This document shows positions 3,445 through 20,193 of a DNA stretch of 20,323 nucleotides, in pieces. Position 1 is the stretch's first letter; each line of letters starts with the position of its first letter. The notes under the pieces are model-generated. The model was not told the origin of the DNA and searched no databases. It was given only the letters and a program-made list of their open reading frames with translations. Source of the stretch: a virus; IMG/VR virus record IMGVR_UViG_3300005536_000020, positions 1 to 20,323 of that record, one strand, 5' to 3'. The position numbers were made by a program, and so were the translations under genes.

Positions 3445-5364
3445 TCAGAATCGCGTCCCGATGTCGCGGAGTCGCTTCATCACGGCCGCGTCCACGGCCT
3501 TCGCGATCGCCGTCGGCGTCCCCAACGGCTGCGTGACGTTGACGATCAACTGCATCGTCGGCGCGCCGGCGCCGCCGCTGCTCGGATAAATGTCCGCACC
3601 CGGCGGCACGTACATCGTCTCGGGGCCGTGTTCGCCCACCCGCGCCCAGCCGCCGGGCGCATTGAACACGCCGGCGGCATAGCCAGGCACGCGCTCACTC
3701 GGATCCGGGCGCGTTTCGGGTGCGCCCTTCGGACTGAACAGGGCCGGTGCGAAGCCCCACTGACGCGCGAGCTTGATCGCTTGCGCATTCTCGAGCGACC
3801 AGCCCTCGTGCAGCAGCGCCATGATTTCCGGATCACGCGCCGCGTGCGAGATATCCAGCGTGCTGCCCATCGCCCGATTCAGCGCCTTCTTCTCCTCGGC
3901 GGCTTTGCGCTCCGCCGCGGCGGCCGCTTCGGCCTGCTGTTTGACTTTGGTGAGTTGTTCGGCCTCGCGATCGAGCGCGGCCGCGGCCTCTTTCGCGGCG
4001 CGCGCGTGCTCCGCGGCCGTCGCGGCGGCTTTCTGCTGCGACGCGCTCTCGTCCTTGAGCGCCGCCTCGATGGCCCGCACTTGCGTCGCGGTGAGATCGT
4101 AGGCCGTCGCGAGGGCGCCTTGCGCGACGCCCGCCTGCAGATAGAACTTGATCGATTCGACGATCGTCCCATCGATCCCGTCGAGCGTGCCCTGCCACCC
4201 CTGCCCCGCCGAGTCGATCTCGCGCATCGCGTCGCGGAACGGTTTCATCGCCTTTTCGTTGGCGTCCCACTGCTCCTTCGCGTGCGCCAGGGCGAGCGCA
4301 TTCCTCGTCAACGCGTGCTCGATCGCGTCGAGATCCTCGGGCAGCTCGGGCGGCGCGATCGCTTGCACCTTCGGTTTGTTGCGTTCGGCATCCTCGGCGA
4401 GTTTCTGAAACTCCGAGCGCAGTTCGCGCGTTTTACTCAGGCTGAGGGTCAACACATCCGCGAGCGCTTCACCGAAGGTCGCTTTCGTGGCGCGCCAGAA
4501 GGCGCCCATCGTGTCGCCGAGCGAATCGAGCGCCTCCGTCGTTTCGCGGCTCATGCCGACGGCGCTGTCCTTCACGTCGTCGAACCCGCGCTTAATCACC
4601 GGCGCGAGCTCCGCCCAGTTCTTCCCGAACAATTCCGAGCCGACGCGCGCGAATTCGAGCGGATCCTGGATCTGGCGCATCGCGTCCGAAATCGCGATGA
4701 ACTGCTGCGCGGGATCGAGCTTCAGGAAGTCGGCGACGTTGATCCCGAGCTCGTGGAGCGCGGCGTTCGCGCCCCCTTTGCCCGTGCCGAGCCGCATCTG
4801 GAGCTTATTGACGGCATCGGCCATCGTGTCGATCGTCACGCCGGCCTCGTCGCCGGCGACGCGCATCTGCTGCAGCGCTTCGACCGAGATCCCGGTCTTG
4901 TCGTGGAGTTTCATGAGCGCGTCCGCGTCAACCAGGAGCTCGCGGCCGAGACTCGCCAGCGCGCCGACACCGACGCCGATCCCCAGCACCCCCATGAACG
5001 ACGTCGCGGTGCCGAGCAAGCCGGACCACGAGCTCTCGGTCTTCCGCGTCGCCTCGGCGAGTGCCTGCATGCCGGCGGGCGCTTCCCGGCCGAGCGCGCG
5101 ATACTTCGCGAGCGCCTCTTCGAGGATCCGGTTGACCTTCGCCTGTTCCGCCGCGGTGAGTTGCGACGCCCCGCCGATGGCATGCACGGCGGCGGTGACG
5201 TTGTTGGCCTGTGCGACGATCTTCTCGCCGTTGAAGGCGGTGACCATCCGCTGCATGCCTTGCGCGGTGACTTCGATCTGCTGGCGGCCCTCCGCGAGAT
5301 TCCGCCGCAGTTCCTCGATGGTCGCGGCGACGCGGACGATCATCACCGGGTTGGAGCCGGCCAC
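3445..5364 (-). CDS. Tail tape measure protein (639 aa)
   Basis: This is the longest gene after the hub and lies between the chaperone/neck genes and the hub, the standard place for the tape measure protein that sets tail length and guides DNA ejection. The N-terminal 110 residues are helical. A glycine-rich hydrophobic segment (about 117-140, around FMGVLGIGVGVGALASLG) could span a membrane. The middle is helical with many Asp-Ala-Met stretches, and about residues 435-500 form an Ala/Glu/Lys-rich coiled coil. The C-terminal motif WARVGEHGPETMYVPPGADI is a common tape measure ending. The GTG at 5364 shares one base with the TAG of the gp10-like gene (TAGTG). An ATG at 5343 is an alternative start. 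At 639 residues it would specify a fairly short tail by the usual length rule. Confidence 0.92.
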   Translation of the reverse strand: MAGSNPVMIVRVAATIEELRRNLAEGRQQIEVTAQGMQRMVTAFNGEKIVAQANNVTAAVHAIGGASQLTAAEQAKVNRILEEALAKYRALGREAPAGMQALAEATRKTESSWSGLLGTATSFMGVLGIGVGVGALASLGRELLVDADALMKLHDKTGISVEALQQMRVAGDEAGVTIDTMADAVNKLQMRLGTGKGGANAALHELGINVADFLKLDPAQQFIAISDAMRQIQDPLEFARVGSELFGKNWAELAPVIKRGFDDVKDSAVGMSRETTEALDSLGDTMGAFWRATKATFGEALADVLTLSLSKTRELRSEFQKLAEDAERNKPKVQAIAPPELPEDLDAIEHALTRNALALAHAKEQWDANEKAMKPFRDAMREIDSAGQGWQGTLDGIDGTIVESIKFYLQAGVAQGALATAYDLTATQVRAIEAALKDESASQQKAAATAAEHARAAKEAAAALDREAEQLTKVKQQAEAAAAAERKAAEEKKALNRAMGSTLDISHAARDPEIMALLHEGWSLENAQAIKLARQWGFAPALFSPKGAPETRPDPSERVPGYAAGVFNAPGGWARVGEHGPETMYVPPGADIYPSSGGAGAPTMQLIVNVTQPLGTPTAIAKAVDAAVMKRLRDIGTRF

Positions 5365-5747
5365 TACGCGCCCAGGCCTTTCTCGTCGATCGCCGCCTGC
5401 ACGGCGTCGCGGGCGCGGTCGTTATGCGCGCTCTCTTCGAGCCGGGCGCTGGCGAAGAGAAACGGCTGCGCGCCCATGAACTTCGTCCCGAACTCCAGAT
5501 AGCGGCCGATCGCCGTCCGCGGATCGCCGACATAGATCACGTAGCCGTCGCCGCTGCGGGTCTCCTCGACCGTGATCGCCTCGCCGGTCTGGCCGGTGCG
5601 GCGCCGCACGCGTGCGCGGGCTTCGGTCGCAATGTGGTCGGCGGTGATCTTCGCCGCCGCTTTCAGCTTGGCGTGCATCACGTCGGCGACCGTGTCGAAA
5701 GCCGCGACGACGTCCCTCGTGTCGACGTCGATGATCAAGCTATCCAT
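5364..5747 (-). CDS. HK97 gp10-like neck / tail completion protein
   Basis: The 127-residue protein starts MDSLIIDVDTRDVVAAFDTV and contains ARVRRRTGQTGEAITVEETR, a Y(V)IYVGDPRTAIGRYLEFGT segment and AQPFLFASARLEES. These are the hallmarks of the HK97 gp10 family, which joins the connector to the tail. The RTGxT and YLEFGT elements are the most diagnostic. It overlaps the end of the preceding chaperone frame by eight bases and ends one base into the tape measure start. In HK97-like phages gp10 usually lies between the head-tail adaptor and the tail terminator. Here it sits after the tail tube and chaperone genes, so either the order is rearranged or the protein has a different role. Confidence 0.82.
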   Translation of the reverse strand: MDSLIIDVDTRDVVAAFDTVADVMHAKLKAAAKITADHIATEARARVRRRTGQTGEAITVEETRSGDGYVIYVGDPRTAIGRYLEFGTKFMGAQPFLFASARLEESAHNDRARDAVQAAIDEKGLGA

Positions 5748-8372: not shown

Positions 8373-8824
8373 GCGGCGATCTCCTCGACGATCAGATCGA
8401 CATTCGTCACGAGCTCGTGCACCTTCAAGCCGTTGAGTTCTTCATCCGGCAGCGGGATGGTTTCGATCTCCGGGAGCGGTTGCCCGCTGCACACGGTGTA
8501 CCCGTCGACCACGAGCGGCGTGGTGTCATCGAAGAGCAGCGCGATCGCGCGCGCCATCACGATCTGCGCGTCACGCATCGTCCCGTACTCGCTTTGAAAG
8601 ACATGCAGCCGTAGCGTGAGGCCGGGCATTGATCCCTTGCCGGGTTTCGTGCCGAGCCCGCCGTAATTCGCTTGCTGCAAGATCTCGAACCACAGAAACG
8701 GATAGCTCGGATCCTGCGGGACGTCGCTCTGCACGCCGCCCGGCACCAGGCTGGTCAGCGTCGCATCCTGGAAGAGCGCGTACACCGCGTCGCCGACGGC
8801 CGTGAGCGGCAGGAGGTACGCCAT
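8369..8824 (-). CDS. Tail terminator-like protein (DUF3168 type)
   Basis: The 151-residue protein starts MAYLLPLTAVGDAVYALFQD and includes YPFLWFEILQQANYG, then LRLHVFQSEYGTMRDAQIVM and a C-terminal segment VHELVTNVDLIVEE. The pattern of an N-terminal helix, a P-(F/Y)-L-W-(F/V)-x-(I/V) strand, an (R/H)-V-(F/W)-S-x strand and a terminal beta strand is that of the DUF3168/tail terminator family, which caps the tail tube and joins it to the head. It starts right after the TAG of the head-tail adaptor gene, the expected order. Confidence 0.8.
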   Translation of the reverse strand: MAYLLPLTAVGDAVYALFQDATLTSLVPGGVQSDVPQDPSYPFLWFEILQQANYGGLGTKPGKGSMPGLTLRLHVFQSEYGTMRDAQIVMARAIALLFDDTTPLVVDGYTVCSGQPLPEIETIPLPDEELNGLKVHELVTNVDLIVEEIAA

Positions 8825-9397
8825 CTACGTGATCTCCCCGCACTCGAGGAACATGTACTCGCGCCCATCCCCGTCCGGAACGATGCCGTGAATCTCGAGC
8901 GTGTGCGTGGGGGCGCCCGGCGGCCACTGCGGCGTCCACAGCGCGCGCATCTCGGTCGTCAGATCGGCGCGCACGAACACCCGAAACCGGTAATCGAGTT
9001 GGCCCTGCAGGGCCTGGACTTGGAGTTTTTCGAACGCGCGGACCGCGCGGTGCTCGGCCCAGATCGTATCGAGGGTTTGCCAGCCGATCTTGCGGCCGCC
9101 CTGGGCGTCGCTGACGTAGACGACCGTGATCGTCCCGGTCGCCGGCGTCGCCAGCGCGCCGTTCACCGGATACGTGAAGCTCGAGGCCCCGGTGACGGCG
9201 ATCTTGACCTTCCCGTTGTAGCCGGCCGGCGTTGCGCCCGCGACGGTCACGTAGTCGTTCGACGCATAGTTATGCGGCGTCGCGGTTTGCGCCGTGGCGG
9301 TCGTCGACGTGCGCGTGAGACTCGCGACGCTAATCGGATCCGGGACGTTCTCCTGAATCACGAGCCGTTCGACGAGATCACCGATGGTGGCCTCCAT
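8825..9397 (-). CDS. Head-tail adaptor (head closure) protein with inserted beta-domain
   Basis: The N-terminus (MEATIGDLVERLVIQENVPD) and residues 97-190 (SDAQGGRKIGWQTLDTIWAE, then YRFRVFVRADLTTEMRALW and LEIHGIVPDGDGREYMFLEC) together match the layout of the Phage_H_T_join / SPP1 gp16-like head closure family. The usual family length is about 110 residues. The extra length comes from a module at residues about 24-95 (TATPHNYASNDYVTVAGA, YNGKVKIAVTGASSFTYPV), placed in the loop between the first strand and the D-x-x-G-G turn. The same module occurs in the tail tube protein. The gene lies between the connector and the tail terminator. Confidence 0.78.
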   Translation of the reverse strand: MEATIGDLVERLVIQENVPDPISVASLTRTSTTATAQTATPHNYASNDYVTVAGATPAGYNGKVKIAVTGASSFTYPVNGALATPATGTITVVYVSDAQGGRKIGWQTLDTIWAEHRAVRAFEKLQVQALQGQLDYRFRVFVRADLTTEMRALWTPQWPPGAPTHTLEIHGIVPDGDGREYMFLECGEIT

Positions 9398-9406
9398 AGT
9401 CAGCGG

Positions 9407-9547
9407 TCAGAACGGATACTGCGCCGCGAGGAACGCGGCGAGGCCGGCCGCGACGAGGCGCAGCCGCCACGGTTCATAGGGCGCCGCCCACGGCACGGCG
9501 GCGATAACGAATAAGACCAGCGCAAAGGTGAGACAGATCAACTTCAT
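9407..9547 (-). CDS. Small membrane protein (46 aa)
   Basis: An ATG at 9547 is preceded by a good Shine-Dalgarno site (GAGGAG, ten bases upstream). The product reads MKLICLTFALVLFVIAAVPW, followed by a short polar part (APYEPWRLR) and a second hydrophobic stretch (LVAAGLAAFLAAQYPF). It therefore has one or two membrane segments, or a signal-anchor. It fills the gap between connector and head-tail adaptor genes. Its role is unknown. Small membrane peptides of this kind are common in phages, and a holin-like role cannot be excluded, though no endolysin is nearby. Confidence 0.7.
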   Translation of the reverse strand: MKLICLTFALVLFVIAAVPWAAPYEPWRLRLVAAGLAAFLAAQYPF

Positions 9548-9565
9548 CGCCCAGCATCTCCTCGC

Positions 9566-10177
9566 TCAGGAGCACAGCGGCGGTCTCCAGTACGTGCGGT
9601 ACGGCGCCCACACCGCGGCCACGTCCTCGGGCACATTCCCGCTATGGTCGCCGCGGTTCGCGTACCAGTGCGCGATCAAGAGCTGTATCCCGAGCTTGAT
9701 CGCCTGCGGAATGGCCGCGACCGTGGTCCAGCCCACGACATAGGTCACCTCGACGGCGCCGGCGCGGGTGGCTTGCAGCACCGGCCAGATCTGGTACGGC
9801 GCCAGGACGATCCGTCCCGGTTCGCTGCTCGTGTCGACTACGTACGCGCTCGTCGCGAGGGTCTGGAGGACGCCGGCGTCGTCGTAGTACTTCACGACGG
9901 GCGCGGTGGACGGATTCGCCGCCGCATCGTTCTGCAGCGGCGCGGCGTTCGGCAGCCAGATGGCATCGCTCCAGCGGTCCTGCACGAGTTTCCAGGTCTG
10001 CGTATACAAGCCGCGCGACAGATACGCTTCGGCGCGATTGCGCGCGGCGACGATGAGGGCGGTGATGTAGGTGTCCTCCGTCGTCAATGTCTGACGGACC
10101 TGCGCCTTCGCCTCCCCCAATGTCACGGGTTCTTTGGCGGGATCCGGTTCGACGGTCCGCGTCCACGCCACGTTCAC
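9566..10177 (-). CDS. Head-tail connector protein (gp6-like, 203 aa)
   Basis: The GTG at 10177 overlaps the stop of the preceding gene (GTGA). The sequence EPVTLGEAKAQVRQT near the N-terminus, then YITALIVAARNRAEAYLSRG and later VVGWTTVAAIPQAIKLGIQL are diagnostic of the HK97 gp6 / phiE125 gp8-type connector. Here helix 1 begins at the LxEAKxxLR motif and the C-terminal helices follow a P-x-x-(I/L)-(K/R) motif (PQAIKLGIQLLIAHWY). This protein forms the ring below the portal. It lies in the expected place after the capsid genes. Confidence 0.87.
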   Translation of the reverse strand: MNVAWTRTVEPDPAKEPVTLGEAKAQVRQTLTTEDTYITALIVAARNRAEAYLSRGLYTQTWKLVQDRWSDAIWLPNAAPLQNDAAANPSTAPVVKYYDDAGVLQTLATSAYVVDTSSEPGRIVLAPYQIWPVLQATRAGAVEVTYVVGWTTVAAIPQAIKLGIQLLIAHWYANRGDHSGNVPEDVAAVWAPYRTYWRPPLCS

Positions 10178-10398
10178 GACACGCCCCGCGGCCGCGCTTT
10201 GCGTTCCGGCGGCGCTGTCGGTTTCGTTTCCGGCGGCCGCAGCCCGCGCGCCTCCTCCGGATCCACCGGCATCGCCGCGCCCGTGCCGATCAGATCCGCG
10301 CCGATGCCGTCGGGTAGGTCATAGACCTGCCCGACGTCCAACGGCTGCGTCCGTCCACGGTCCTGCCACTCCCGTGACAGGACCATCCGTACGCGCAT
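10174..10398 (-). CDS. Small hypothetical head-region protein (74 aa)
   Basis: The start at 10398 is three bases after the stop of the decoration-like gene and the stop overlaps the connector start. The product reads MRVRMVLSREWQDRGRTQPL, then VGQVYDLPDGIGADLIGTGA, with a proline- and arginine-rich tail. The VG-x-x-Y-(D/E)-(L/V)-P motif followed by a short helix ending in GTGAA is shared in outline with the 73-residue protein at 7945-8166. Similar small proteins sit next to capsid genes in other siphoviruses. No function is assigned. Confidence 0.7.
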   Translation of the reverse strand: MRVRMVLSREWQDRGRTQPLDVGQVYDLPDGIGADLIGTGAAMPVDPEEARGLRPPETKPTAPPERKARPRGVS

Positions 10399-10401
10399 CG
10401 A

Positions 10402-10836
10402 TCACGCCGTCCGCGCCGCCCGGCCCTTCAGCACCGTCACGGCGATCGGCGTGCCGGTGCCGTGCGTGCCCGAGAAGTCGGCGAGGACTTTCAGGTACCG
10501 ATACCCGCCGATGTAGTCGACGACGCTGATGTCGGCCGCCGCGTGCGCCGCGATGAGCGACTTGACGATCCCGCCCGTCCCGACCGACGTGTCCGCGAGC
10601 GATCCGAGGATGACGTCGCCGGCCGCCACGGCCACATACGTCGAGTCATCGTTCGACTGCGTGATTTTGAACTCGACCTTGTTCGTGCCGTCGAAGGTGA
10701 TGCCGCCGATGCCGACCTGGATCAGGAACTTCGCGCCGTCGAAGCCCTGCAGATCGATCGCGGCCGGCGTGTTGTCGGCCGCGAGCGTGGCATTCAACAC
10801 GGCGACGGGCACCACGTAGTTGATTTGACGCATCAT
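10402..10836 (-). CDS. Putative head decoration / capsid-associated protein (144 aa)
   Basis: A strong Shine-Dalgarno site (GAGGAG) lies nine bases before the first ATG at 10836; a second ATG follows directly. The protein starts MMRQINYVVPVAVLNATLAA, then AIDLQGFDGAKFLIQVG, and later EFKITQSNDDSTYVAVAAGD and VDYIGGYRYLKVLADFS. This is an all-beta pattern (strand - SxD - strand - G-x-(K/R)-Y-(L/I)-(K/R)) seen in small proteins located right after the major capsid gene in many environmental phages. A surface decoration role is inferred from position and fold, not shown. Confidence 0.7.
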   Translation of the reverse strand: MMRQINYVVPVAVLNATLAADNTPAAIDLQGFDGAKFLIQVGIGGITFDGTNKVEFKITQSNDDSTYVAVAAGDVILGSLADTSVGTGGIVKSLIAAHAAADISVVDYIGGYRYLKVLADFSGTHGTGTPIAVTVLKGRAARTA

Positions 10837-10864: not shown

Positions 10865-12208
10865 TTAGATGAACTTCAGGCACTTGATCGCTTCGAAATC
10901 GACGACGTCGCCGCCGACCCGCGCGGTCGTGTAGAACATCACGTACGGTTTGTTCGTGTAGGGATCGCGCAGGACGCGAATCCCGAGGCGATCAACGATC
11001 TGATAGCCGCGCAGGAAATTCCCGAACCAGACCGAGAGCGTGTTGGCGCCGAGATCGACCACGTCGTCGGCTTCCGTCACCGGATAGCCGAGGAGCGTCG
11101 AGAGCTGCCCCGCCGCGAGCGACGGCAGCCAGATGTAGCTGCCCTGGCCGGCGCCGCCGCTCGAATCTTTCAACTGCCGCGTGGTCCCCAGCGTGCGCCG
11201 GTTCATCACCCAGTTGGCGCCCTGGCGATAGTTCGTGTTGAGTTTGTGGACGAGATCGATCAGCTTGTTCGCGCCGTTCGGATCGGTGCCGTAGCCGCCG
11301 GACGTGCCCGTGGCGACATGCTCGATCACGCCCCAGGCGCGCGTGGCATCCGCCGTCGCGGCGGTCGTGTACGAGGCGAAGCCGCGCGGCTGGCCGACGC
11401 CGGTGCCCACGACGAACGCGGTATTGGTGCCGCGCGCGCCGCGGTCCACCACCTTGTCCGCCAACCAGTTCTCGATGTTGATGTTCGAATCGTCGAGGAG
11501 GGTCTGCGTCGCGCCCGGATTCGCGTACCACTCGTGCGCGGTGATCTTCCACTTGTTGAGTTGTGGCGTGGTGGTCGCTGTGCGCGTGCCGGTTTCCGTG
11601 ACCCACCCGAAGCCCGCTTGATCGGTGTCGCGCAGGCCTTCGAGTTCGCCGGTGGAGATCGTCTGCTGCGCGGCGATCGTGCGAATGGGTGAGGTTTCGA
11701 AGAGCTTCGTCACGATGCGGCCCGTCAGATCGGGCGTGACCGTGTACCCGCCGTCCGGATCGCTCCCGACCGACATGGCCTTGCGTTCGGCGCCGTCCAT
11801 CTCCTCGGTGCCGCGGCGCAGGTACTTGTTGAGCGCGCTCTTGTACGCTTTGTAGTCCTCGACGGTGAGATCGGGCGGCGCCTGGCGCCCGGTCTTCTGC
11901 GCGGCCGCGCGGAGATGCCCGTTGAACTGGCGCGTTTCGGTCTCGAGTGCTTTGGCCTCGTCGCCGCTGCCGCCGGACAGCTGCAGCCGATTGACCTTGG
12001 CTTCGAGCTTCGCGAACGCGTCCGCGATCGCGGTGTGCTTGTCGAGCTCGGCGTTGATCTTCGCGAGCTTCTCCTCGAGCAGGGGATCGGCGACGCCCTT
12101 CTCCGCGAGTTGTTTCAGTCGGAGATCGTTCGCGGTTTTGAATTCTTCGAAGGCGCGATTGCTTTTCTCGATCGCGTCTTTCACCTCGGTGAGTGCCGGT
12201 TCAGCCAT
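10865..12208 (-). CDS. Major capsid protein, HK97 fold
   Basis: At 447 residues this is a typical HK97-type major capsid protein. Residues 1-90 form a charged, coiled-coil scaffold-like domain (VKDAIEKSNRAFEEFKTAND), expected to be removed by the protease encoded upstream. Residues about 150-447 hold the shell domain with TSPIRTIAAQQTIS, ITAHEWYANPGATQTLLDDS, FVVGTGVGQPRGFASY (the characteristic (G/N)G-x-G-x-x-x-P-x-G loop), WVMNRRTLGTTRQLKDS, LLGYPVTEADDV and FGNFLRGYQIVDRLGIRVLRD, ending KCLKFI. The start ATG at 12208 has GGAG seven bases upstream and overlaps the protease gene by eight bases. Confidence 0.96.
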   Translation of the reverse strand: MAEPALTEVKDAIEKSNRAFEEFKTANDLRLKQLAEKGVADPLLEEKLAKINAELDKHTAIADAFAKLEAKVNRLQLSGGSGDEAKALETETRQFNGHLRAAAQKTGRQAPPDLTVEDYKAYKSALNKYLRRGTEEMDGAERKAMSVGSDPDGGYTVTPDLTGRIVTKLFETSPIRTIAAQQTISTGELEGLRDTDQAGFGWVTETGTRTATTTPQLNKWKITAHEWYANPGATQTLLDDSNINIENWLADKVVDRGARGTNTAFVVGTGVGQPRGFASYTTAATADATRAWGVIEHVATGTSGGYGTDPNGANKLIDLVHKLNTNYRQGANWVMNRRTLGTTRQLKDSSGGAGQGSYIWLPSLAAGQLSTLLGYPVTEADDVVDLGANTLSVWFGNFLRGYQIVDRLGIRVLRDPYTNKPYVMFYTTARVGGDVVDFEAIKCLKFI

Positions 12209-12908
12209 GATGTGCTCCTGTGAAGATTGCGGCGCGCTGTGCGAGCAACGCCAGCAGGTCCTCGCAGGCTTCGTCAGATGGCCTGGCCTCCCGCCGCACC
12301 TGTCGATAGCCTTTTGCGATGATCGTTTTGGCCTGGGCCTCGGTGAAGCCGGCCTCCCGCCGGAGCCACCGTTCCAATTCCCGTTCGGTCGGGAGCTCGC
12401 CGTCCGCCTTCACCGCCGTGATGCGTGCCGCATCGTTCGCCGGGAAGGTGACGATCGAGGTCTCCCAGAGGTCAATCTCGGTGAGCGTGCGAATCCCGGT
12501 CTCCTGATCCATCTCGAACTTCCGGGTTCGGAACCCGATCGAGAGGCCGTCGAGCTCGCCTTCCTTCATCGCGACGTACGTGCCTTGCGCGCGGTCGGTC
12601 CCGACGTCGAAGAGCCGCCCCTTCACGTACAGCCCGACGTCGTCTTCGCGCATCGCTTCCCACTTCCCGATCGGCACCATGTCGTCGGCGCCGCCGCCGA
12701 AGAACCCGCCGCCATGCTGGAGCAACATCTTCGGCAGCTTGCCTTTGGCGTGCCACTCCTGCAGCGTGGTCGTGAACGCGCCCTTTTTGATCACGTCGTC
12801 GTACGCATCGATGTTGCCGAAGACGGCGCCGTGTCCTTCAAACGTGCGCGTGTCGTCCGCCCCGAGCGCTTTCAACTCGCACGGGATGATGAGGCGATCG
12901 AGTGTCAT
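12201..12908 (-). CDS. Prohead maturation protease, HK97 family (peptidase S78)
   Basis: The start ATG at 12908 overlaps the portal stop (ATGA); longer extensions upstream lie inside the portal gene. The 235-residue protein has the S78 hallmarks in order: FEGHGAVFGNIDAYDDVIKKGAF near the N-terminus, MLLQHG with the catalytic His at 65, LDGLSIGF with the catalytic Ser at 123, and DLWETSIVTFPAND with the likely acidic residue Glu149. The enzyme cleaves the scaffold domain of the capsid protein and itself during prohead maturation. The C-terminal third is charged and helical, as expected for a prohead-targeting segment. Confidence 0.94.
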   Translation of the reverse strand: MTLDRLIIPCELKALGADDTRTFEGHGAVFGNIDAYDDVIKKGAFTTTLQEWHAKGKLPKMLLQHGGGFFGGGADDMVPIGKWEAMREDDVGLYVKGRLFDVGTDRAQGTYVAMKEGELDGLSIGFRTRKFEMDQETGIRTLTEIDLWETSIVTFPANDAARITAVKADGELPTERELERWLRREAGFTEAQAKTIIAKGYRQVRREARPSDEACEDLLALLAQRAAIFTGAHHG

Positions 12909-14173
12909 GCGCCCCCCGTTGCGCCGGCGGGCTTCGCCGGCGGCTTCCCCGGATCGAAGCCGAGCGGCGCCAGATTCGTGGGCTGCAGATAGACGTCCCC
13001 GTCCTTGGTCGGGTTCATGTCTTCGAGCGCCCGGACATCGTTCGGACTCATCGCGCCCATTTGCACCATCCGCCAATAAAACTCCGACCGCGACGCGGCA
13101 TCGCCGCGCATCGTCCCGTTCAACCGGAATTTGATCCCGAATTTCTCCGGCCGCGTCAGCAGATCGAGCGCGAGCCGTTGTTCCCACGTCACGACGTCGG
13201 GCCCGAGCGTAAAGACGTGGATCCCGATCTGCTGCTGCTCGATGCCGGTGCCCCAACTGGTTTGCTTCGAGGAGAGGCCCATCATGAACGCGGGCAGGCG
13301 GAGGGCCGCGGCGATCTGTTCGCGGAGATCCTGTTGCGTCTGGAGAAACTGGCCATCCTCCGGGGAGAGCGAGAGCCGCTCGATCGACATGCCCTCTTCG
13401 AGCACCGCGACGCGCCGCTTCTCCTTCGACTGCCCGTAGGTCGCTTCCCAGGATTCCTCGAGGTTCTTCCGGGCCTTCTCGCCGAGCGTATTCGGATGTT
13501 TGAGGGCGACGCTCGGTGTCGCGTCACGACTCCAGAGACTGTTGGCGTGTTCCTGCGTGGCGAGCGCGCCGCCGAGGACTTCGCGCAAGTCCTGCAAGAG
13601 CGATCGGCCGACGCGGCCATCGGTGCTGAGGGCCTTCAGGTGCACGACTTCGAGCGCGGGGAGGGGGACGGGTGCGCCGGTTTTTCGGTGCATCTTGTAG
13701 ATCGTGGCGGCGCCGAACTCGTCGGGCTCGGTGGCCTCGAGCCGATCCGGGTGGAGCGGAATCAGTTCCTGGACTTGCAGCCGATCGACGCCGTCGCCGG
13801 GGGAGGTCGCTGTGACGAGGTTCTTCCACATGTACCCGTTGCCCCGCAGGATCCGATGCGCTTCCACCATGCCGACGAGTTCAGCCCGCGTCTGCCAGAG
13901 GTTCGGCTTGCGCAGGAGCCGGGCGATCGGATGCGTGGGCGCGTCGCGGGTCGAACGCCCATCCGGCAACCGTTCGATCACATCGACCGGCAGTGTCGCG
14001 AGCAGCCCGCTCCGGATCGCGACGCCCGTGAGCAGGGCCACCACATTGAACGCGCTCGTCTCGTTGACGACCTGGCCCGACACGCTGGCATGGCCGGCCC
14101 GCAGATAGTCGATCACGGCCTGCGGCCAGGTCGCCGACTTGCGATCGAAGAGCACCGCGAACGGATTTCTCAC
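12905..14173 (-). CDS. Portal protein, HK97 family
   Basis: The 422-residue protein starts at a GTG (14173) that overlaps the stop of the small membrane gene (GTGA). It contains NETSAFNVVALLTGVAIRSG and LATLPVDVIERL near the N-terminus, THPIARLLRKPN, then HRILRGNGYMWK, and GLSSKQTSWGTGIEQQQIG with WEQRLALDLLTRPE later, all standard in HK97-type portals. The SKQTSWGTGIEQQ motif is especially characteristic. It forms the dodecameric vertex that the terminase docks on. A Pro/Ala/Gly-rich C-terminal tail (PGKPPAKPAGATGGA) is probably disordered. Confidence 0.95.
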   Translation of the reverse strand: MRNPFAVLFDRKSATWPQAVIDYLRAGHASVSGQVVNETSAFNVVALLTGVAIRSGLLATLPVDVIERLPDGRSTRDAPTHPIARLLRKPNLWQTRAELVGMVEAHRILRGNGYMWKNLVTATSPGDGVDRLQVQELIPLHPDRLEATEPDEFGAATIYKMHRKTGAPVPLPALEVVHLKALSTDGRVGRSLLQDLREVLGGALATQEHANSLWSRDATPSVALKHPNTLGEKARKNLEESWEATYGQSKEKRRVAVLEEGMSIERLSLSPEDGQFLQTQQDLREQIAAALRLPAFMMGLSSKQTSWGTGIEQQQIGIHVFTLGPDVVTWEQRLALDLLTRPEKFGIKFRLNGTMRGDAASRSEFYWRMVQMGAMSPNDVRALEDMNPTKDGDVYLQPTNLAPLGFDPGKPPAKPAGATGGA

Positions 14174-14770: not shown

Positions 14771-14970
14771 GCATCCTCCGGGTCGTCGTCCTGGTCCTCG
14801 CGCAGAACGCGCGCGAGGCCACGGCGCAGGAGTTCCGATACCGAGATCCCGTTCCGGGACGCGAGGTGACAGGCGCGGTCATAGTCGTTTGACGGGACGC
14901 GCAAGTTGACCGACGTCGTCGTGTCGCCGGCGATCAGGGGTGGCCGCCCGCGGCGGCGATCGGTCGTCAT
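14767..14970 (-). CDS. Ribbon-helix-helix DNA-binding protein (67 aa)
   Basis: The ATG at 14970 overlaps the TerL stop (ATGA). After a basic arm (MTTDRRRGRPPLIAGD) the sequence TTTSVNLRVPSNDYDRACHL forms the beta strand and first helix, and NGISVSELLRRGLARVL the turn and second helix of a CopG/Arc-type ribbon-helix-helix fold. The tail is very acidic (EDQDDDPEDA). It probably binds DNA as a dimer. Inside a late morphogenesis operon it could be an autoregulator, an antitoxin-like relic or a packaging accessory. No toxin partner is recognised next to it. Confidence 0.78.
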   Translation of the reverse strand: MTTDRRRGRPPLIAGDTTTSVNLRVPSNDYDRACHLASRNGISVSELLRRGLARVLREDQDDDPEDA

Positions 14971-16718
14971 ACGCTCGCCAATCCGCGGGACTCGTAGACC
15001 GATTCCTGCTCGTCCTCGAGCGCCGCGAGCTTGCGCGCCATGATCGCGGCGACGATGCCGTCGATCTTCCCGCGCGACTTTTTCTTGACCGGTTTGATGT
15101 TGTCCGGGCCGTCGCGGTGCACGACCACATTGCTCGCTTCCCAGAGCAGGATCGGATCGCCGCCGGCGTCGACCAGGCCGTCGAGCACGTCGGCTTCGAA
15201 TTCTTTCGACGGCGGCGACAGCGACTTCAGGGATTGCGGGATCTCGACGACGTCGAGCCCGTCCTGCTCGAGCTCCTGCTCGATGTTCGAGGAGTTCCAG
15301 GGATCGAACCCGATTTGCGCGATGACCAACCCGAACGCGCGCGCGTCGGCGACGGCCTGGCGAATGACGGCCTGGTCGAGCCGATTGCCCGGATTCGTCG
15401 TCAGGTACGGCCAGTCGGTCCCCGGAATGATGCGCTGGGTCCAGAGCGTGTACGCGACCCGGTCGCGCCGGCCGCGGGCGATCAAGGTGTCGGCCGGCGT
15501 GAAATGCCGGACCAGCAAGCGCCACGTCTTCCGCGTCGCCGTGGGGGGGAACGCGAGCGCCAGCGCCGCGAGGTCGATCTTGCTGGCGAGATCGACCGCC
15601 GCATAGCAGGTCTCGCCGCGCAGGTCGTTCGCCGACCAGGGACTCTGCCCTTTCCGCCAGCCGTCCATCGAGAGCCAGGGCGCGTCGGTATTGACCCAGA
15701 TGTTCAACCGCTTCTGCTGCACGGCGGCCGCGGCCTCGGGCATGTGGCGCGCCTTGGTCACGAGCTCGCGCAGATCCTCGGGCTTCACCGAGACGCCGTA
15801 ATTCGGATTGGCTTTGCGCCAGGTTGTCTCGAGCGTCCAATCGTCCGCCGGCACGCCGCGATCCTTGTCTTCGACATCGGCGTGCGCGATGAAGGCGAAC
15901 GTCGTTTCGTCCGGGGGATCGAGCGCCTGCTCGAGAATCTGGCAGGCGTAGTGGTGTTGCGTGCCGCAGGGCGAGCGCTCGTCATCACCGGCCGTGGTGA
16001 TCTGAAAGTCGAGCGGTTGCTGGCGCGCGCCGGTCGCCGTCTCCATCACATCGATCTGATCGCGGTCTTTGATCTTGTGGAATTCGTCGACGATGATCAG
16101 GTGCGGATTGAGGCCGTCTTCGGGATCTTTGCCGAGCGGCTCGAGCTTCGATTCCGTGTCGACGCGGTGGAGGTTGCGCGCGCGAATCGTGATGCGCGTC
16201 CGCAGGCCGCTCGAGCGCACCAGCTTTTTCGCATCGTTGAACACGAGCATCGCCTGATGCCGCCGCGTCGCCAAGGTATAGCCTTCGGCGCCGGGCTCGT
16301 GGTCGAAGAACGTGACGTAGATCGCGACGATGGCCGCCTCGAGCGTCTTGCCGTTCTTCCGGGGCACTTCGTTGTAGGCGCGCCGGAAGCGCCGCAGGCC
16401 CGTCTCGACGTGCACCCAGGCGAAGATCGATCCCAGGCGGAACTTCTGCCACGGCTCGAGCCGGATGTACTGCCCCGCCCATTCCCCTTTGTAGTGCTTC
16501 AGTTTTTCGGCGAAGCGGAAGAAGCGCTCGGCCTTCGCGAGATCGAAGACGTACGGAAACGCCTTCGTGGCTTCCCGCGATCGATCGCGCAGATGCCGTT
16601 CGCACGCCAGGCGGTGATACTTCCCCGCCGGGACACGCCCGTGCACGACGTCGATCGCGTACGCGTCGATGACGTTCGCCGCCTCGCTGTTAGTGCGTCG
16701 TGCGATCGCTCGGTTCAT
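14967..16718 (-). CDS. Terminase large subunit
   Basis: I take the ATG at 16718; a TTG four codons upstream (16730) is an alternative. The 583-residue protein carries an N-terminal ATPase with EPWQKFRLGSIFAW (adenine-binding Q motif), VPRKNGKT as Walker A (residues 118-125), LIIVDEFH as Walker B with the catalytic Glu (207-214) and a TTAG coupling motif (241-244). The C-terminal RNase H-like nuclease has AAVDLASKIDL (Asp376), IGFDPWN (Asp472) and KIDGIVAAIMA (Asp553). It is a Terminase_1-type motor that cuts and packages phage DNA. It overlaps the small subunit gene by 29 bases. Confidence 0.96.
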   Translation of the reverse strand: MNRAIARRTNSEAANVIDAYAIDVVHGRVPAGKYHRLACERHLRDRSREATKAFPYVFDLAKAERFFRFAEKLKHYKGEWAGQYIRLEPWQKFRLGSIFAWVHVETGLRRFRRAYNEVPRKNGKTLEAAIVAIYVTFFDHEPGAEGYTLATRRHQAMLVFNDAKKLVRSSGLRTRITIRARNLHRVDTESKLEPLGKDPEDGLNPHLIIVDEFHKIKDRDQIDVMETATGARQQPLDFQITTAGDDERSPCGTQHHYACQILEQALDPPDETTFAFIAHADVEDKDRGVPADDWTLETTWRKANPNYGVSVKPEDLRELVTKARHMPEAAAAVQQKRLNIWVNTDAPWLSMDGWRKGQSPWSANDLRGETCYAAVDLASKIDLAALALAFPPTATRKTWRLLVRHFTPADTLIARGRRDRVAYTLWTQRIIPGTDWPYLTTNPGNRLDQAVIRQAVADARAFGLVIAQIGFDPWNSSNIEQELEQDGLDVVEIPQSLKSLSPPSKEFEADVLDGLVDAGGDPILLWEASNVVVHRDGPDNIKPVKKKSRGKIDGIVAAIMARKLAALEDEQESVYESRGLASV

Positions 16719-17205
16719 CGAACTCGGCAAAGGGATCCGTGGACGTGCCGGCGCCGTCCCGCCCGATCTGATGCACGCGCGTCCGCGCCGCCGGCGTCAA
16801 TCCGAATTCCATGAGATAGCCGCGCAGGGTGTGATCGTGCGCGCGCAGCTGCGCGAAGCCGGGATGCACGCGGGGATTGCCGAACTGGTCGCAATAGAAC
16901 GGCTGTTTCAGCTCGGCGAGTTGCCGCTCGAGCCGTTCCGCGCGCGCGTGTAGTTGGCAGTAGCGATAGAGCGCCGCATCGTCCACCGTCGACAACGTCT
17001 TCGAGGCTTCGAGGCGATCGAGCATCCGGAGCCATTCCGCGCGCGCTTCCCCGCGCAGGGATTTCGGCGGCGTCGGCCGACCCTTCGGCGGATCCGCGGT
17101 GCTGCCCGTGCCGCCGGCGTGGCGATCTTTCCGGAATGTGCCGGCGAGCTCGTGCTCGCGTCGCGATCGTTTGTTGCGCCCGCCCGAGCTCGAGGTCCCC
17201 GGCAT
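16690..17205 (-). CDS. Terminase small subunit, P27 family
   Basis: The ATG at 17205 overlaps the preceding stop (TGATG). A GTG one codon earlier is possible. After a basic N-terminus the protein reads PPKSLRGEARAEWLRMLDRL, then LSTVDDAALYRYCQLHARAE and finally YLMEFGLTPAARTRVH. The P-x-x-L-x-x-x-A-x-x-E-W motif, the L-(T/S)-x-x-D-x-x-(A/L)-L-x-x-Y-C motif and the F-G-L-T-P-x-x-R end are the signature of P27-type small terminases, which recognise the packaging site. Its position directly before TerL is as expected. Confidence 0.93.
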   Translation of the reverse strand: MPGTSSSGGRNKRSRREHELAGTFRKDRHAGGTGSTADPPKGRPTPPKSLRGEARAEWLRMLDRLEASKTLSTVDDAALYRYCQLHARAERLERQLAELKQPFYCDQFGNPRVHPGFAQLRAHDHTLRGYLMEFGLTPAARTRVHQIGRDGAGTSTDPFAEFDEPSDRTTH

Positions 17206-17381
17206 CACCGCGACTCCGCCTCGAGATCGGCTTTGGCCATGCGGCGGCGCTTCGCGAGCTCCGCCTGTACGAGCGCGAGGCCTTTGAGCCCCGCCAACGT
17301 GCGGCGCCGCGGCGCGCGCGCGGTGATCGGCGCGATCACGCGGCGCCCTTTGCCGAAGCCGAATCCCAACTGCGTTGCCAA
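17205..17381 (-). CDS. Small basic protein upstream of terminase (58 aa)
   Basis: The frame is open from just after a stop at 17396 to a TGA at 17205-17207 that overlaps the TerS start. The only plausible start is TTG at 17381, since no ATG or GTG gives a longer product. The product MATQLGFGFGKGRRVIAPIT is followed by a very Arg-rich middle (ARAPRRRTLAGLKGLALVQA) and a charged helix (ELAKRRRMAKADLEAE). It could bind nucleic acid near the packaging site. The TTG start lacks a clear Shine-Dalgarno site, so confidence is moderate. Confidence 0.55.
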   Translation of the reverse strand: MATQLGFGFGKGRRVIAPITARAPRRRTLAGLKGLALVQAELAKRRRMAKADLEAESR

Positions 17382-17585
17382 GATGTCACGTCAGATCACG
17401 CGATTTCATTTGCTGACGGCGCGCGCGCGAAGGCGCAGCCCGGTTTCCCGCCGCCCAGGGCTGTAGAGATTTCGATCCCCCCCGGGGTCGACCCGATCGA
17501 ATGCATGCCACACGAAATTGGAAGCGAAGGAGGTCGGAGTCGTGGTGGTGATCGCGTCGTGCATCATCATTCAGCATCGACGACG
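17382..17585. other. Inter-genic stretch between HNH and terminase genes, palindrome-rich (candidate packaging site)
   Basis: No convincing gene is seen in these 204 bases. A weak leftward frame (17386-17649) crosses it but overlaps the HNH gene and has no domain. The stretch 17477-17508 packs a run of seven C and four G (17477-17487, containing CCCCGGGG), a perfect 10-bp palindrome GGGTCGACCC (17485-17494), CGATCG (17494-17499), ATGCAT (17501-17506) and GCATGC (17503-17508). Cohesive-end sites usually lie just upstream of terminase genes, and HNH proteins next to terminases are known from cos-type phages. The site is therefore a candidate cos region by position and symmetry only. Confidence 0.4.
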
Positions 17586-17939
17586 TCATCGACGTCGCAG
17601 TCCTCGGAGCGATTCCGCACGCGTCTTCAGATCGCTGTGTGTGTGACACAGCGCTTGCTCGTTGGTCTCGTCGTCGCGGCCGCCTTCAGCCAGTGGAATG
17701 CGGTGGTCGCGGATGGTCGCGCGCGTGTGCGTCCCTGCCTCGAGGCAGAGCACGCACCAGGGTTGCCGCGCAAAAAGACGTGAGCGGCGACGCTGCAATT
17801 CACGCCCGCGAATGCGAATCACGGGCGGAGATGTGACAGGACTGGTCACGCGCGTCCGCCAAGGCGCGACGTTATGTATTGAACAATTGAACTTGCCGCA
17901 GCGGGGATGCGGGCACGGCCGCGGAGGGGCGTTCGCCAT
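17586..17939 (-). CDS. HNH endonuclease next to the terminase genes
   Basis: I chose the ATG at 17939, which overlaps the preceding stop (TGATG); an upstream extension lies inside that gene. The 117-residue product has an N-terminal Cys cluster (CPHPRCGKFNC, residues 9-19), an Arg-rich middle, then CVLC (62-65), the HNH core DHRIPLAEGG (Asp78-His79), Asn93, and LCHTHSDLKT (Cys98, His101). The spacing fits a zinc-stabilised beta-beta-alpha-metal nuclease. HNH proteins encoded beside terminase are known to take part in cos cleavage with the terminase complex in HK97-like phages. That role is inferred here from position. Confidence 0.88.
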   Translation of the reverse strand: MANAPPRPCPHPRCGKFNCSIHNVAPWRTRVTSPVTSPPVIRIRGRELQRRRSRLFARQPWCVLCLEAGTHTRATIRDHRIPLAEGGRDDETNEQALCHTHSDLKTRAESLRGLRRR

Positions 17940-18262
17940 CAGACGATCTCTCCGTTGGTGATGAAGAAGTGCGCCTCGCATCCGCTCGTCAGCAGAATCG
18001 AGGCCGTGCCCCTCACGAGCGACAGATCATCGAACCCGGTTCCGACGAGATTCCATCGGCCAGGTGTCGGCGAGGTCGTTTGAGGGACCGAGGGTGACCA
18101 GCAGATCACCGAGTGCACGCCGGGACGCTGACGACGGTTCGCCTCGAAGCACTTCGGGCACACGAACATGAGGCCGTCCGCCTCCGTGATCGCGTCGACG
18201 TGGCGGAAGTGGGTATCGTCTTCGCGCTTGAGGAACTGCGGCTCGAGCTCGGTCAGCTTCAC
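17939..18262 (-). CDS. Conserved phage protein with CxxC motif (107 aa)
   Basis: The GTG at 18262 overlaps the stop of the upstream membrane gene (GTGA). The product reads VKLTELEPQFLKREDDTHFR, then ADGLMFVCPKCFEAN with a CxxC pair, GVHSVICWSPSV, and after a Trp-Asn segment TGFDDLSLV and a C-terminal CEAHFFITNGEIV. The layout (CP-x-C, H-S-V-x-x-W, PS/GTAS strand, C-x-x-H-F-(F/W)-I-x-x-G) resembles the phage DUF6527-type proteins, probably a zinc-binding beta fold; this family name is tentative. Function is unknown. Its coupling to the HNH gene suggests shared expression. Confidence 0.75.
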   Translation of the reverse strand: MKLTELEPQFLKREDDTHFRHVDAITEADGLMFVCPKCFEANRRQRPGVHSVICWSPSVPQTTSPTPGRWNLVGTGFDDLSLVRGTASILLTSGCEAHFFITNGEIV

Positions 18263-18408
18263 CGCAGCACCCGGACCAGACCACCGAGGACACAGAGGAC
18301 ACAGAGGACCAGGACCAGCCACGGCCAGCCCGCGCGCGGGGCGGAGGACTCGCGGCAGACTGGCACGCGGTAGTCCCGGAGGCCGAATTCGTTGGTAAAC
18401 GGAATCAC
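18259..18408 (-). CDS. Small single-span membrane protein (49 aa), first gene of the leftward operon
   Basis: The stop overlaps the next gene (GTGA), the main evidence for the frame. GTG at 18408 is the best start; no ATG occurs upstream in frame. The product MIPFTNEFGLRDYRVPVCRE continues with a short Ser/Pro/Arg stretch and a hydrophobic segment (WPWLVLVLCVLCVLGGLVRV) at the C-terminus. The membrane part is encoded by a 9-bp tandem repeat. It could be a tail-anchored membrane peptide. No family is recognised. Confidence 0.55.
   Translation of the reverse strand: MIPFTNEFGLRDYRVPVCRESSAPRAGWPWLVLVLCVLCVLGGLVRVLR
18286..18310. repeat. 9-bp tandem repeat, nearly three copies
   Basis: The unit gaggacaca occurs at 18286-18294 and 18295-18303, followed by a partial third copy (18304-18310). 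It lies in the hydrophobic segment of the small membrane gene and keeps that frame, encoding Val-Leu-Cys steps. Slippage at this site would change the length of the membrane helix by three residues. Confidence 0.7.
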
Positions 18409-18556: not shown

Positions 18557-18808
18557 ATGCACGATCCCACCGTAGCGGGCGGGCGGCGGCTGCTTGAGGT
18601 GTCGCACGTCGCGCACCGGCTGAGCGCCAGCCACGAGTATGTGCGGCGCCTCATCCGGGAGGGCAAGCTGCCGGCGATCCGGCTGGGCACCCGGTGGCGG
18701 ATCGATCCGCTCGACCTGCAAGCCTTCCTGGATGCCCAACGGACCAGCGACGACGACCTGCCCCTGAAGCTCCACGCGGTGCCCTGTGAGGCGGCGAAGG
18801 GGGCGTGA
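18557..18808 (+). CDS. Excisionase-type helix-turn-helix protein (83 aa)
   Basis: The product starts MHDPTVAGGRRLLEVSHVAH and continues RLSASHEYVRRLIREGKLPA then RLGTRWRIDPLDLQAFLDAQ. This is the winged HTH of the excisionase/MerR-like HTH_17 family: helix 1 (LLEVSHVAHRL), turn, recognition helix (SHEYVRRLIREG), wing (LPAIRLGTRWRI) and a final helix (DLQAFLDAQ). It is the first gene of the rightward operon and its stop overlaps the next start (TGATG). It may be an excisionase, a repressor or an early-gene activator. No integrase is seen in the window. A truncated second copy of its HTH lies before the Ku gene. Confidence 0.88.
   Translation: MHDPTVAGGRRLLEVSHVAHRLSASHEYVRRLIREGKLPAIRLGTRWRIDPLDLQAFLDAQRTSDDDLPLKLHAVPCEAAKGA
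18583..18672 (+). repeat. HTH duplication, copy 1 (in the full-length HTH gene)
   Basis: This 90-bp stretch encodes RRLLEVSHVAHRLSASHEYV and the following recognition helix. It matches 19231-19320 at about 74 of 90 positions by hand alignment, in the same orientation about 650 bp apart. Most differences fall at third codon positions. Confidence 0.8.
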
Positions 18809-19065
18809 TGGACGCCGACCGGCCCACCGCGCATACGTTGACGGTGGAGTTCAGGCGGTTGCTGTCGGAGGCGGACTGGCGCGTCGTGATGGACGCGGCG
18901 CGGCAGATTCCCTACGCCAAGCAGTTTCGGGTTGACCTGGTGCCCGCGGGGGTCGTGCAGCTCAGTCCGTGGCTGCACCATCACCCGACGTGCGCGCGGA
19001 ATACGGCCGCGGCGGCGTGTGACTGTGGTCTGCAAGCCACGCTCGCCGAGGTGGATCCGCGATGA
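18808..19065 (+). CDS. Small Cys/His-containing protein in the HTH-Ku operon (85 aa)
   Basis: The ATG at 18808 shares one base with the HTH stop (TGATG). The product reads MDADRPTAHTLTVEFRRLLS, then ADWRVVMDAARQIPYAKQF and ends with LSPWLHHHPTCARNTAAAAC followed by DCGLQATLAEVDPR. The H-H-H-P-T-C...A-C-D-C-G cluster near the C-terminus could bind zinc. The CDCG end is reminiscent of small phage proteins of unknown role found in early-gene regions. It is coupled downstream to the next gene by ATGA. No catalytic motif is visible. Confidence 0.72.
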   Translation: MDADRPTAHTLTVEFRRLLSEADWRVVMDAARQIPYAKQFRVDLVPAGVVQLSPWLHHHPTCARNTAAAACDCGLQATLAEVDPR

Positions 19066-19160
19066 GACTCGAACTGCCGCTCTGGCTCGTGCAGCAACTG
19101 CCGGTGTGGTGGAAGGCGCGACGGGTTGCTCGTGAGTTGAAGGGGCTCACACGCCGATGA
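19062..19160 (+). CDS. Very small basic peptide (32 aa) in the coupled operon
   Basis: The frame fits exactly between its neighbours with ATGA overlaps at both ends. It encodes MRLELPLWLVQQLPVWWKAR and a basic end (RVARELKGLTRR). It looks like an amphipathic helix with three Trp. Either it is a small functional peptide or it serves mainly to keep ribosomes moving towards the downstream genes. Support rests on the overlaps rather than on similarity. Confidence 0.5.
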   Translation: MRLELPLWLVQQLPVWWKARRVARELKGLTRR

Positions 19161-19327
19161 ATCGACGAGGTTTTCTCGGCCTGTTCGGCGCCGTCGTCGC
19201 GGCGCCGTTCGTGCCATCCGCGTCCGGCGCTCGCCGCCTCCTGGAGGTATCCCACGTCGCGCATCGGATGAGCGCCAGCGAGGAGTACGTCCGCCGGCTC
19301 ATCCGGGAAGGCAAGCTGCGGATCTGA
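19157..19327 (+). CDS. Chimeric small protein: Tat-like leader joined to a truncated HTH (56 aa)
   Basis: The ATG at 19157 overlaps the preceding stop (ATGA), and the TGA overlaps the Ku start (TGATG). Residues 1-23 (MNRRGFLGLFGAVVAAPFVP, then SAS) look like a twin-arginine signal: RR-x-F-L, a weakly hydrophobic core and a possible PSA cleavage site. Residues 25-56 are almost identical to the HTH protein encoded upstream (RRLLEVSHVAHRMSASEEYV and RRLIREGKL) but stop right after the recognition helix, without the wing. A secreted half-HTH makes little functional sense, so this is probably a recombination product or a leader with a coupling role for Ku. Confidence 0.65.
   Translation: MNRRGFLGLFGAVVAAPFVPSASGARRLLEVSHVAHRMSASEEYVRRLIREGKLRI
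19231..19320 (+). repeat. HTH duplication, copy 2 (truncated, inside the chimeric gene)
   Basis: This is the partner of 18583-18672, in frame and in the same orientation. Amino-acid changes are few (Leu to Met, His to Glu, Pro to Arg at the end). The similarity ends at the codon after the recognition helix, eight bases before the Ku start. Confidence 0.8.
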
Positions 19328-20193
19328 TGGCTCCGCGCGCGACCTGGAAAGGCGTCCTCAAGATCAGCCTGGTCACGATTCCGATCAAAGTCTTCCCTGC
19401 CACCGATACCTCGGAAGGCATCACGTTCAACCAACTCCACGATGTCTGCAAAACGAAAGTGCAGTCGAAGCGCTGGTGTGCGAGTTGCGCGAAAGAGGTG
19501 CCGTCCGCCGAGATCGTGAAAGGCTACGAATTCGCGCACGGGAAGTTCGTGACGTTGTCCGAGGACGAGCTCGCCAAGGTGAAACCCGCGTCAACGAAGA
19601 TCATCGACCTGGTCCAGTTCGCCGAGGCCTCCGCGCTCGATCCGATCTACGTGGCGAAAAGCTATTACCTCGGCCCGGACGGCGATCGCGCCGGCGAGGC
19701 CTTCGCGGTGGTCGCGGCGGCGCTGCGCGGCGTCGTGGGTGTCGGGAAGCTGGCGATCTATGGGCGCGAGTACTTGGTCGCGGTGCGCGCGGCCCCGCAC
19801 ACGGCGCCCGCGTTGCTGCTCCACACCTTGCATCATGCCGCCGAGATTCGTCCGATCGACATGCTCGACGAGGATGCGGGATCGTCGCGGGCGCGCCCAC
19901 CGATCGCGCAGGTGCAGCTGGCGCGCAAGGTGATCGGGACGTTGCTGCGCCCCAAGGATCGCGGCTTGAATCTCGCCGCCTTCACCGACGACTATCGCGC
20001 CGGGCTGCAGCAGGTCATCGACGCGAAGATCGCGGGCGAAGAGATCATCGAACCGAAAGCGGTCGACGCGCCGAACGTCGTGAATCTGAAAGAGGCGCTC
20101 AGTCGGAGTTTGCAGTTAGTGAGCAGCGTCAAGAAGGTGCCGCCGGCGCGGATGGCGGTCGATCGCGGCGAGCGGAAGCGGAAACGCGCCTAG
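19327..20193 (+). CDS. ku: Ku homologue (bacterial/phage NHEJ DNA-end-binding protein)
   Basis: The 288-residue protein is full length for the bacterial Ku family (about 270-300). It begins MAPRATWKGVLKISLVTIPI and continues VFPATDTSEGITFNQLHDVC, the conserved Ku opening of the form W-x-G-x-(I/L)-(S/K)-x-x-L-V-x-(I/V)-P-(V/I)-K-(L/V). Then come RWCASCAKEVPSAEIVKGYE (CxxC at 51-54 with Cys41 nearby), YYLGPDGDRAGEAFAVVAAAL and AIYGREYLVAVRA, which build the ring around DNA. The C-terminal end (VDRGERKRKRA) is a short basic tail as in bacterial Ku. Ku binds double-strand ends and recruits a LigD-type ligase, absent from this window. The ATG overlaps the chimeric gene stop. Confidence 0.96.
   Translation: MAPRATWKGVLKISLVTIPIKVFPATDTSEGITFNQLHDVCKTKVQSKRWCASCAKEVPSAEIVKGYEFAHGKFVTLSEDELAKVKPASTKIIDLVQFAEASALDPIYVAKSYYLGPDGDRAGEAFAVVAAALRGVVGVGKLAIYGREYLVAVRAAPHTAPALLLHTLHHAAEIRPIDMLDEDAGSSRARPPIAQVQLARKVIGTLLRPKDRGLNLAAFTDDYRAGLQQVIDAKIAGEEIIEPKAVDAPNVVNLKEALSRSLQLVSSVKKVPPARMAVDRGERKRKRA

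Follow-up and report, generated by a model that had tools for sequence, protein, structure and literature searches.

A separate Ku lineage beside the predicted cos site of uncultured HK97-like phages

Descriptions of phage-encoded Ku proteins come mainly from mycobacteriophages; a single Streptomyces phage is listed as well (PMC11936186). The genomes of mycobacteriophages Omega and Corndog carry 4-nt 3' overhangs (PMC3706429, PMC4351075), and their Ku cooperates with the LigD of the host (Pitcher 2006, as cited in PMC4351075 and PMC7719229). The end-binding protein Gam of phage Mu is likewise reported to promote NHEJ with a host ligase (Bhattacharyya 2018, as cited in PMC8136500). For cos packaging, the closest described system is HK97, whose TerS binds 15–29 bp from the cut, at a G and the adjacent A-tract (PMC11331095). 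The HK97 genome carries GGGGGGGGGATCAAATC, whose G-run ends 42 bases before the right end, and HNH lies inside that end; from the left end, TerS is at 50 bases and TerL at 542 bases.

The DNA analysed here, hereafter the window, is a 20,323-base IMG/VR contig (IMGVR_UViG_3300005536_000020) that makes up the whole source record; it is a linear fragment in which Ku lies close to one edge. Its minus strand holds an HK97-type morphogenesis module, assigned by profile matches: an HNH endonuclease of the terminase-linked kind (17586–17981), a terminase small subunit of the Terminase_4/P27 family (TerS, 16690–17208), a terminase large subunit with TerL_ATPase and TerL_nuclease matches (TerL, PHROG 9, 14967–16730), portal protein (12905–14155), head maturation protease (12201–12908), major head protein (10865–12208), head-tail adaptor (9566–10177), a weakly matched head closure protein (8825–9397), a tail completion/Neck1 protein (5364–5747) and the tail length tape measure protein (3445–5364). 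An ORF call at 17939–18322, also on the minus strand and at that side of the divergent region, had no family match. Ku is encoded on the plus strand, behind an excisionase-family HTH gene and two small ORFs. A first-pass annotation of the sequence had placed it in a phage-type operon near the HNH/terminase cluster. The proximity was correct, as Ku lies about 1.3–2.6 kb from HNH, TerS and TerL; the head and terminase genes are on the minus strand, however, and Ku is therefore divergent from that cluster and outside its operon.

The first gene of the Ku transcription unit (18557–18808, +) matched the HTH_17/excisionase-family profile, and a similar gene precedes Ku in many relatives. It is followed by an ORF of 86 aa (18805–19065, +) that is partly similar to ORFs at the same place in contigs L100 and L092. 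By sequence comparison, the next ORF (19157–19327, +) is a hybrid remnant consisting of a Tat-like leader (compare L094, 7079–7294) and a truncated second HTH copy. The HTH gene is thus partly duplicated in the window (18557–18808 and, truncated, 19211–19327), the second copy being fused to the Tat-like leader right before Ku. Within TGATG at 19325–19329, the stop codon of this ORF and the Ku start codon share one base. The annotation's coupling of Ku to phage-type small genes is real to the extent of this overlap, but it is local only, because the overlapping ORF is a hybrid remnant.

The complete Ku announced in the first-pass annotation was borne out. The ku ORF (19327–20193, +) starts with ATG and encodes 288 aa; the protein scored 219.9 bits against NCBIfam TIGR02772 (Ku_bact; curated cut-off 150 bits) over model positions 1–259 of 259, and its residues 4–275 were matched by both Pfam PF02735 (E 4e-38) and PHROG 4873, 'Ku-like DNA end binding' (E 1e-36). 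The protein has a core ring domain, then the minimal C-terminal region, and ends in KRKRA, a short basic tail. The AlphaFold model (pLDDT 81, pTM 0.64) had B. subtilis and M. tuberculosis Ku as top Foldseek matches (E 1e-14), and the protein is predicted to adopt the ring/beta-barrel fold of solved bacterial Ku; the rmsd to the solved structures was high, so that arm positions in the model are not reliable. The alignment with M. tuberculosis Ku continued through the minimal C-terminal region, up to residue 269, and L258 and S261 were invariant among 27 aligned Ku. In M. tuberculosis Ku this region suffices for stimulating ligation (PMC9638933). Four pairs of close relatives gave dN/dS values of 0.18–0.30 for ku, which point to purifying selection. 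The window gene is hence confirmed as a real, full-length, bacterial-type Ku.

A Ku tree was built from the window's clade together with Omega, Corndog, plasmid-borne and actinobacterial Ku, the bacteria being drawn from Actinomycetota and the phylum of L004, with Acidobacteriota and other phyla absent. A branch supported at 100/100 set the window's clade apart from the rest of the tree. The Ku of Omega and Corndog fell outside the clade and grouped with Actinobacteria, and the nearest bacterial Ku among those sampled was alphaproteobacterial. The phylogenetic comparison with bacterial and Omega/Corndog Ku called for by the annotation thus upheld its suggestion of a phage-encoded Ku lineage apart from the mycobacteriophages. 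Other Ku types also turned up in the searches. A different Ku in L093, a jumbo-size viral record of 286,005 bases (9968–10777; TIGR02772 241.7 bits), branched with plasmid Ku of Cupriavidus/Burkholderia, and the 5.5 kb 'Bacteriophage sp.' record L005 (MT838252.1), which may be bacterial DNA, held an actinobacterial-type Ku.

Relatives were collected by a TerL search of IMG/VR followed by scans with Ku alignments as queries, and their genes were called with a simple GC-frame caller. Ku was located upstream of TerL on the opposite strand in six TerL relatives (L009, L013, L022, L023, L024 and L033). The same Ku clade was found in 20 further distinct IMG/VR contigs, giving 21 distinct full Ku including that of the window, plus truncated copies. 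Most contigs share one architecture, portal-TerL-TerS-HNH on the minus strand and, divergently, HTH-Ku on the plus strand; in L097, L098, L106 and L107 the terminase was more distant or not recognised. When TerL sequences were linked at 45% identity, those of the Ku-bearing loci fell into three groups, the other two being 28–34% identical to the window TerL. Exact end overlaps closed five Ku-bearing records (127 bases in G011, G046 and G063, 123 in G056 and 90 in G054), which we therefore regard as circular assemblies; circular Ku-bearing genomes measured 35–53 kb and were without host DNA. One of them, G011, comprises 42,369 bases and holds an integrase, a repressor-like HTH gene, head genes, HNH and Ku. 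Ku is a true phage gene here, in a cassette of phage origin. One search of the literature yielded nothing on Ku in soil viruses, 'soil' being our assumed label for the phages of this clade.

Several relatives showed further peculiarities. TerL is split in L103 (6722–8271, −) into two ORFs that overlap by 4 bases, one carrying the ATPase and the beginning of the nuclease domain, the other a nuclease part; two overlapping TerL ORFs also occur in L094, L095, L099, L105, L113 and L108, and in one TerL group of Ku-bearing phages (L094, L099, L103, L105, L113) every member has the split. Ku is followed by a cold-shock-domain gene (PF00313) in L094 (8148–8381), by a similar ORF in L100 (6251–6478) and, directly, in L107 by an ORF that has both a DNA methylase domain and a match to an Mrr-like nuclease (8517–10250). 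Between cos and TerS, L099 (7473–8774) and the left end of G057 have an ORF that appears to resemble a ParB/methylase-type protein.

The predicted cos element of the window (17400–17483, −) was recognised by its motif and its HK97 spacing. Between HNH and TerS, GGGGGGGATCGAAATC occurs at 17483–17468 (−) with no mismatch, where 0.03 occurrences with two or fewer mismatches were expected by chance. An A-tract follows 66 nt after the G-run, as does the T-tract of HK97, and in the other Ku-bearing loci the first tract was found at 51–74. A G-run/ATCAAATC element of this kind also precedes the right end of HK97, whose cos is likewise flanked by HNH and TerS. HK97 spacing would put the left genome end of the window near 17434, with its double-stranded right end at about 17444.

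The window is partial and its own ends are not cos, and contig ends of relatives were used as a stand-in for virion ends. Contig ends of TerL relatives clustered 475–615 bases upstream of TerL (14/50, binomial p 1e-7, with some pairs representing one phage), compared with TerL-to-end distances of 542 bases in HK97 and 531 bases in Marinobacter phage AS1. Two contigs from different samples, L072 and L073, begin at the identical base, and in G028, G044 and the Ku-bearing G057 the right end follows the G-run at 33–35 bases. G057 ends at cos on both sides: HNH occupies one end, and TerL lies close to the opposite one. Compared with L099, whose left-hand motif is the same, the G057 junction is about 9 bases short, an estimate from one contig that assumes conserved spacing; the missing bases would fit a 3' overhang near the 10 of HK97, lost in library making. 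A search for copies with the ends of G057 or G028 joined, from which the overhang could be measured, found none. Since related contigs end at an HK97-like cos element, the ends look like cos rather than headful ends. Headful packaging, which the annotation had named as the finding that would remove any need for end joining, was rejected as the likely mode on the clustered contig ends and the HK97-like cos. We regard the window as part of a cos-packaging HK97-like siphophage that is probably temperate.

The distance from the Ku start to the predicted cos was 0.6–2.5 kb in 13/13 loci checked, which places Ku near the right end of the linear genome. In lambda, the right genome end enters the cell first. 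If the same holds here, Ku would be among the first genes in the cell, and we infer right-end-first entry and hence early ku expression.

Profile searches of the Ku-bearing records for ATP-dependent ligase, NAD-dependent ligase and LigD polymerase domains returned none, while controls were detected. The window record contained no ATP-dependent ligase, and the annotation's observation that LigD is missing from the window held there and in every Ku-bearing relative searched. Any sealing should therefore use a host ligase.

That some 20 related uncultured viruses keep Ku, mostly in the same arrangement, suggests a use on their own DNA ends at infection. We give about an even chance to a role in which the phage Ku binds, bridges and protects the ends after injection and brings in host LigD to circularise the genome; the joining step, the LigD and the host we infer. 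In the linear virion genome, the left end would carry the terminase genes; towards the right end, Ku and the HTH regulator would read inwards, followed by HNH and then cos. After injection, a Ku homodimer would thread onto the linear DNA ends, shield them and hold them together, and would then recruit the host NHEJ ligase LigD to form the genome circle needed for replication or integration. The full-length protein with its minimal C-terminal region, the low dN/dS, the lack of detected ligase or LigD polymerase domains in the Ku-bearing records, the divergent placement kept with three TerL lineages, the position near cos at all loci checked, and the precedent of Omega and Corndog Ku with host LigD are all consistent with such a role. 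Against it, relatives without Ku that have the same cos element manage without the protein, and the overhang deduced for a Ku-bearing phage should anneal on its own. Ku was patchy among the TerL relatives with enough upstream sequence (5/26), and together with the overhang of about 9 nt this argues that Ku helps without being strictly required, which keeps two other explanations in play.

The first, which we hold to be somewhat unlikely, is that Ku only coats the incoming ends against host exonucleases of the RecBCD/AddAB type, the overhangs annealing and an ordinary host ligase sealing them without LigD. Mu and lambda Gam block host exonucleases by other means. An overhang of the deduced length is enough for annealing, Ku beside cos is probably among the first genes to enter, and no phage ligase was found; a pure shield would not, however, need the ligation-linked minimal C-terminal region, which is kept. 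Less probable still, and in our judgement doubtful, is that prophage-expressed Ku helps the lysogen to repair double-strand breaks and has no use on phage ends. A tyrosine integrase was present in 9/17 Ku-bearing records (one of the nine, G050, with a different Ku), the partner gene is HTH/excisionase-like and the presence of Ku is patchy, all as expected of such cargo. Its constant position and orientation beside cos across three TerL lineages are nevertheless hard to explain for free cargo, and no tyrosine integrase was seen in 8/17 records, some of which are fragments. The tight linkage of Ku to HNH, TerS and cos would also suit a part in packaging, for example in holding or protecting fresh cuts made at cos by terminase and HNH, but the gene is read from the other strand together with a regulator-like gene, outside the late operon, most TerL relatives are without it and no Ku with a packaging function is known to us, and we consider such a part highly improbable. 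Although the window is a linear fragment and Ku sits close to one edge of it, the chance that Ku is host chromosome beside a prophage, with a bacterial ligD nearby as in the refuting case that the annotation named, is close to negligible, a host-flank origin being ruled out by the five circular Ku-bearing relatives and by the single phage-only Ku branch.

Returning to Ku as an aid to end joining, we tentatively suggest, as a possibility short of an even chance, that the gene belongs to a mobile cassette tied to cos, which shifts between TerL lineages, stays at the end likely to enter first and serves ordinary long cohesive ends. If so, phage NHEJ would serve genome ends in general rather than remedy atypically short ones. 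A separate Ku lineage with a fixed place next to the packaging site of uncultured high-GC phages opens to testing the question of why an end-joining protein is encoded by some cos phages, and the clade provides a set of Ku for comparing end binding, bridging and ligase recruitment.

Compared with bacterial Ku (TIGR02772; M. tuberculosis, B. subtilis), the window Ku shares the full-length match, predicted fold and minimal C-terminal region, but is phage-borne, without a ligD partner, with a short basic tail and on its own branch. Mu Gam is at best a remote Ku homologue, whereas the window protein matches Ku profiles directly. HK97 and Marinobacter phage AS1 share with the window the TerL family, HNH, and TerS and HNH flanking cos, and HK97 also the spacing of G-run and A/T-tract; neither was among the known-phage matches to Ku, all but one of which were mycobacteriophages. 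Omega (cluster J) and Corndog (cluster O), like the window's clade, encode a bacterial-type Ku, no ATP-dependent ligase was found in three phages of their type searched, and their linear genomes with 3' cohesive ends resemble the ends deduced here. Mycobacteriophage Ku, however, is about 23–36% identical to the window Ku and sits on a different branch with Actinobacteria; in Ariel and Dylan it is surrounded by other genes, at distances of about 10 and 16 kb from the record's right end, and not beside cos; and the mycobacteriophages with Ku have genomes of 70–115 kb, against 35–53 kb here. The parallel with atypically short cohesive ends drawn in the first-pass annotation was not supported, as the 4 nt of Omega and Corndog compare with about 9 nt deduced here from one Ku-bearing contig.
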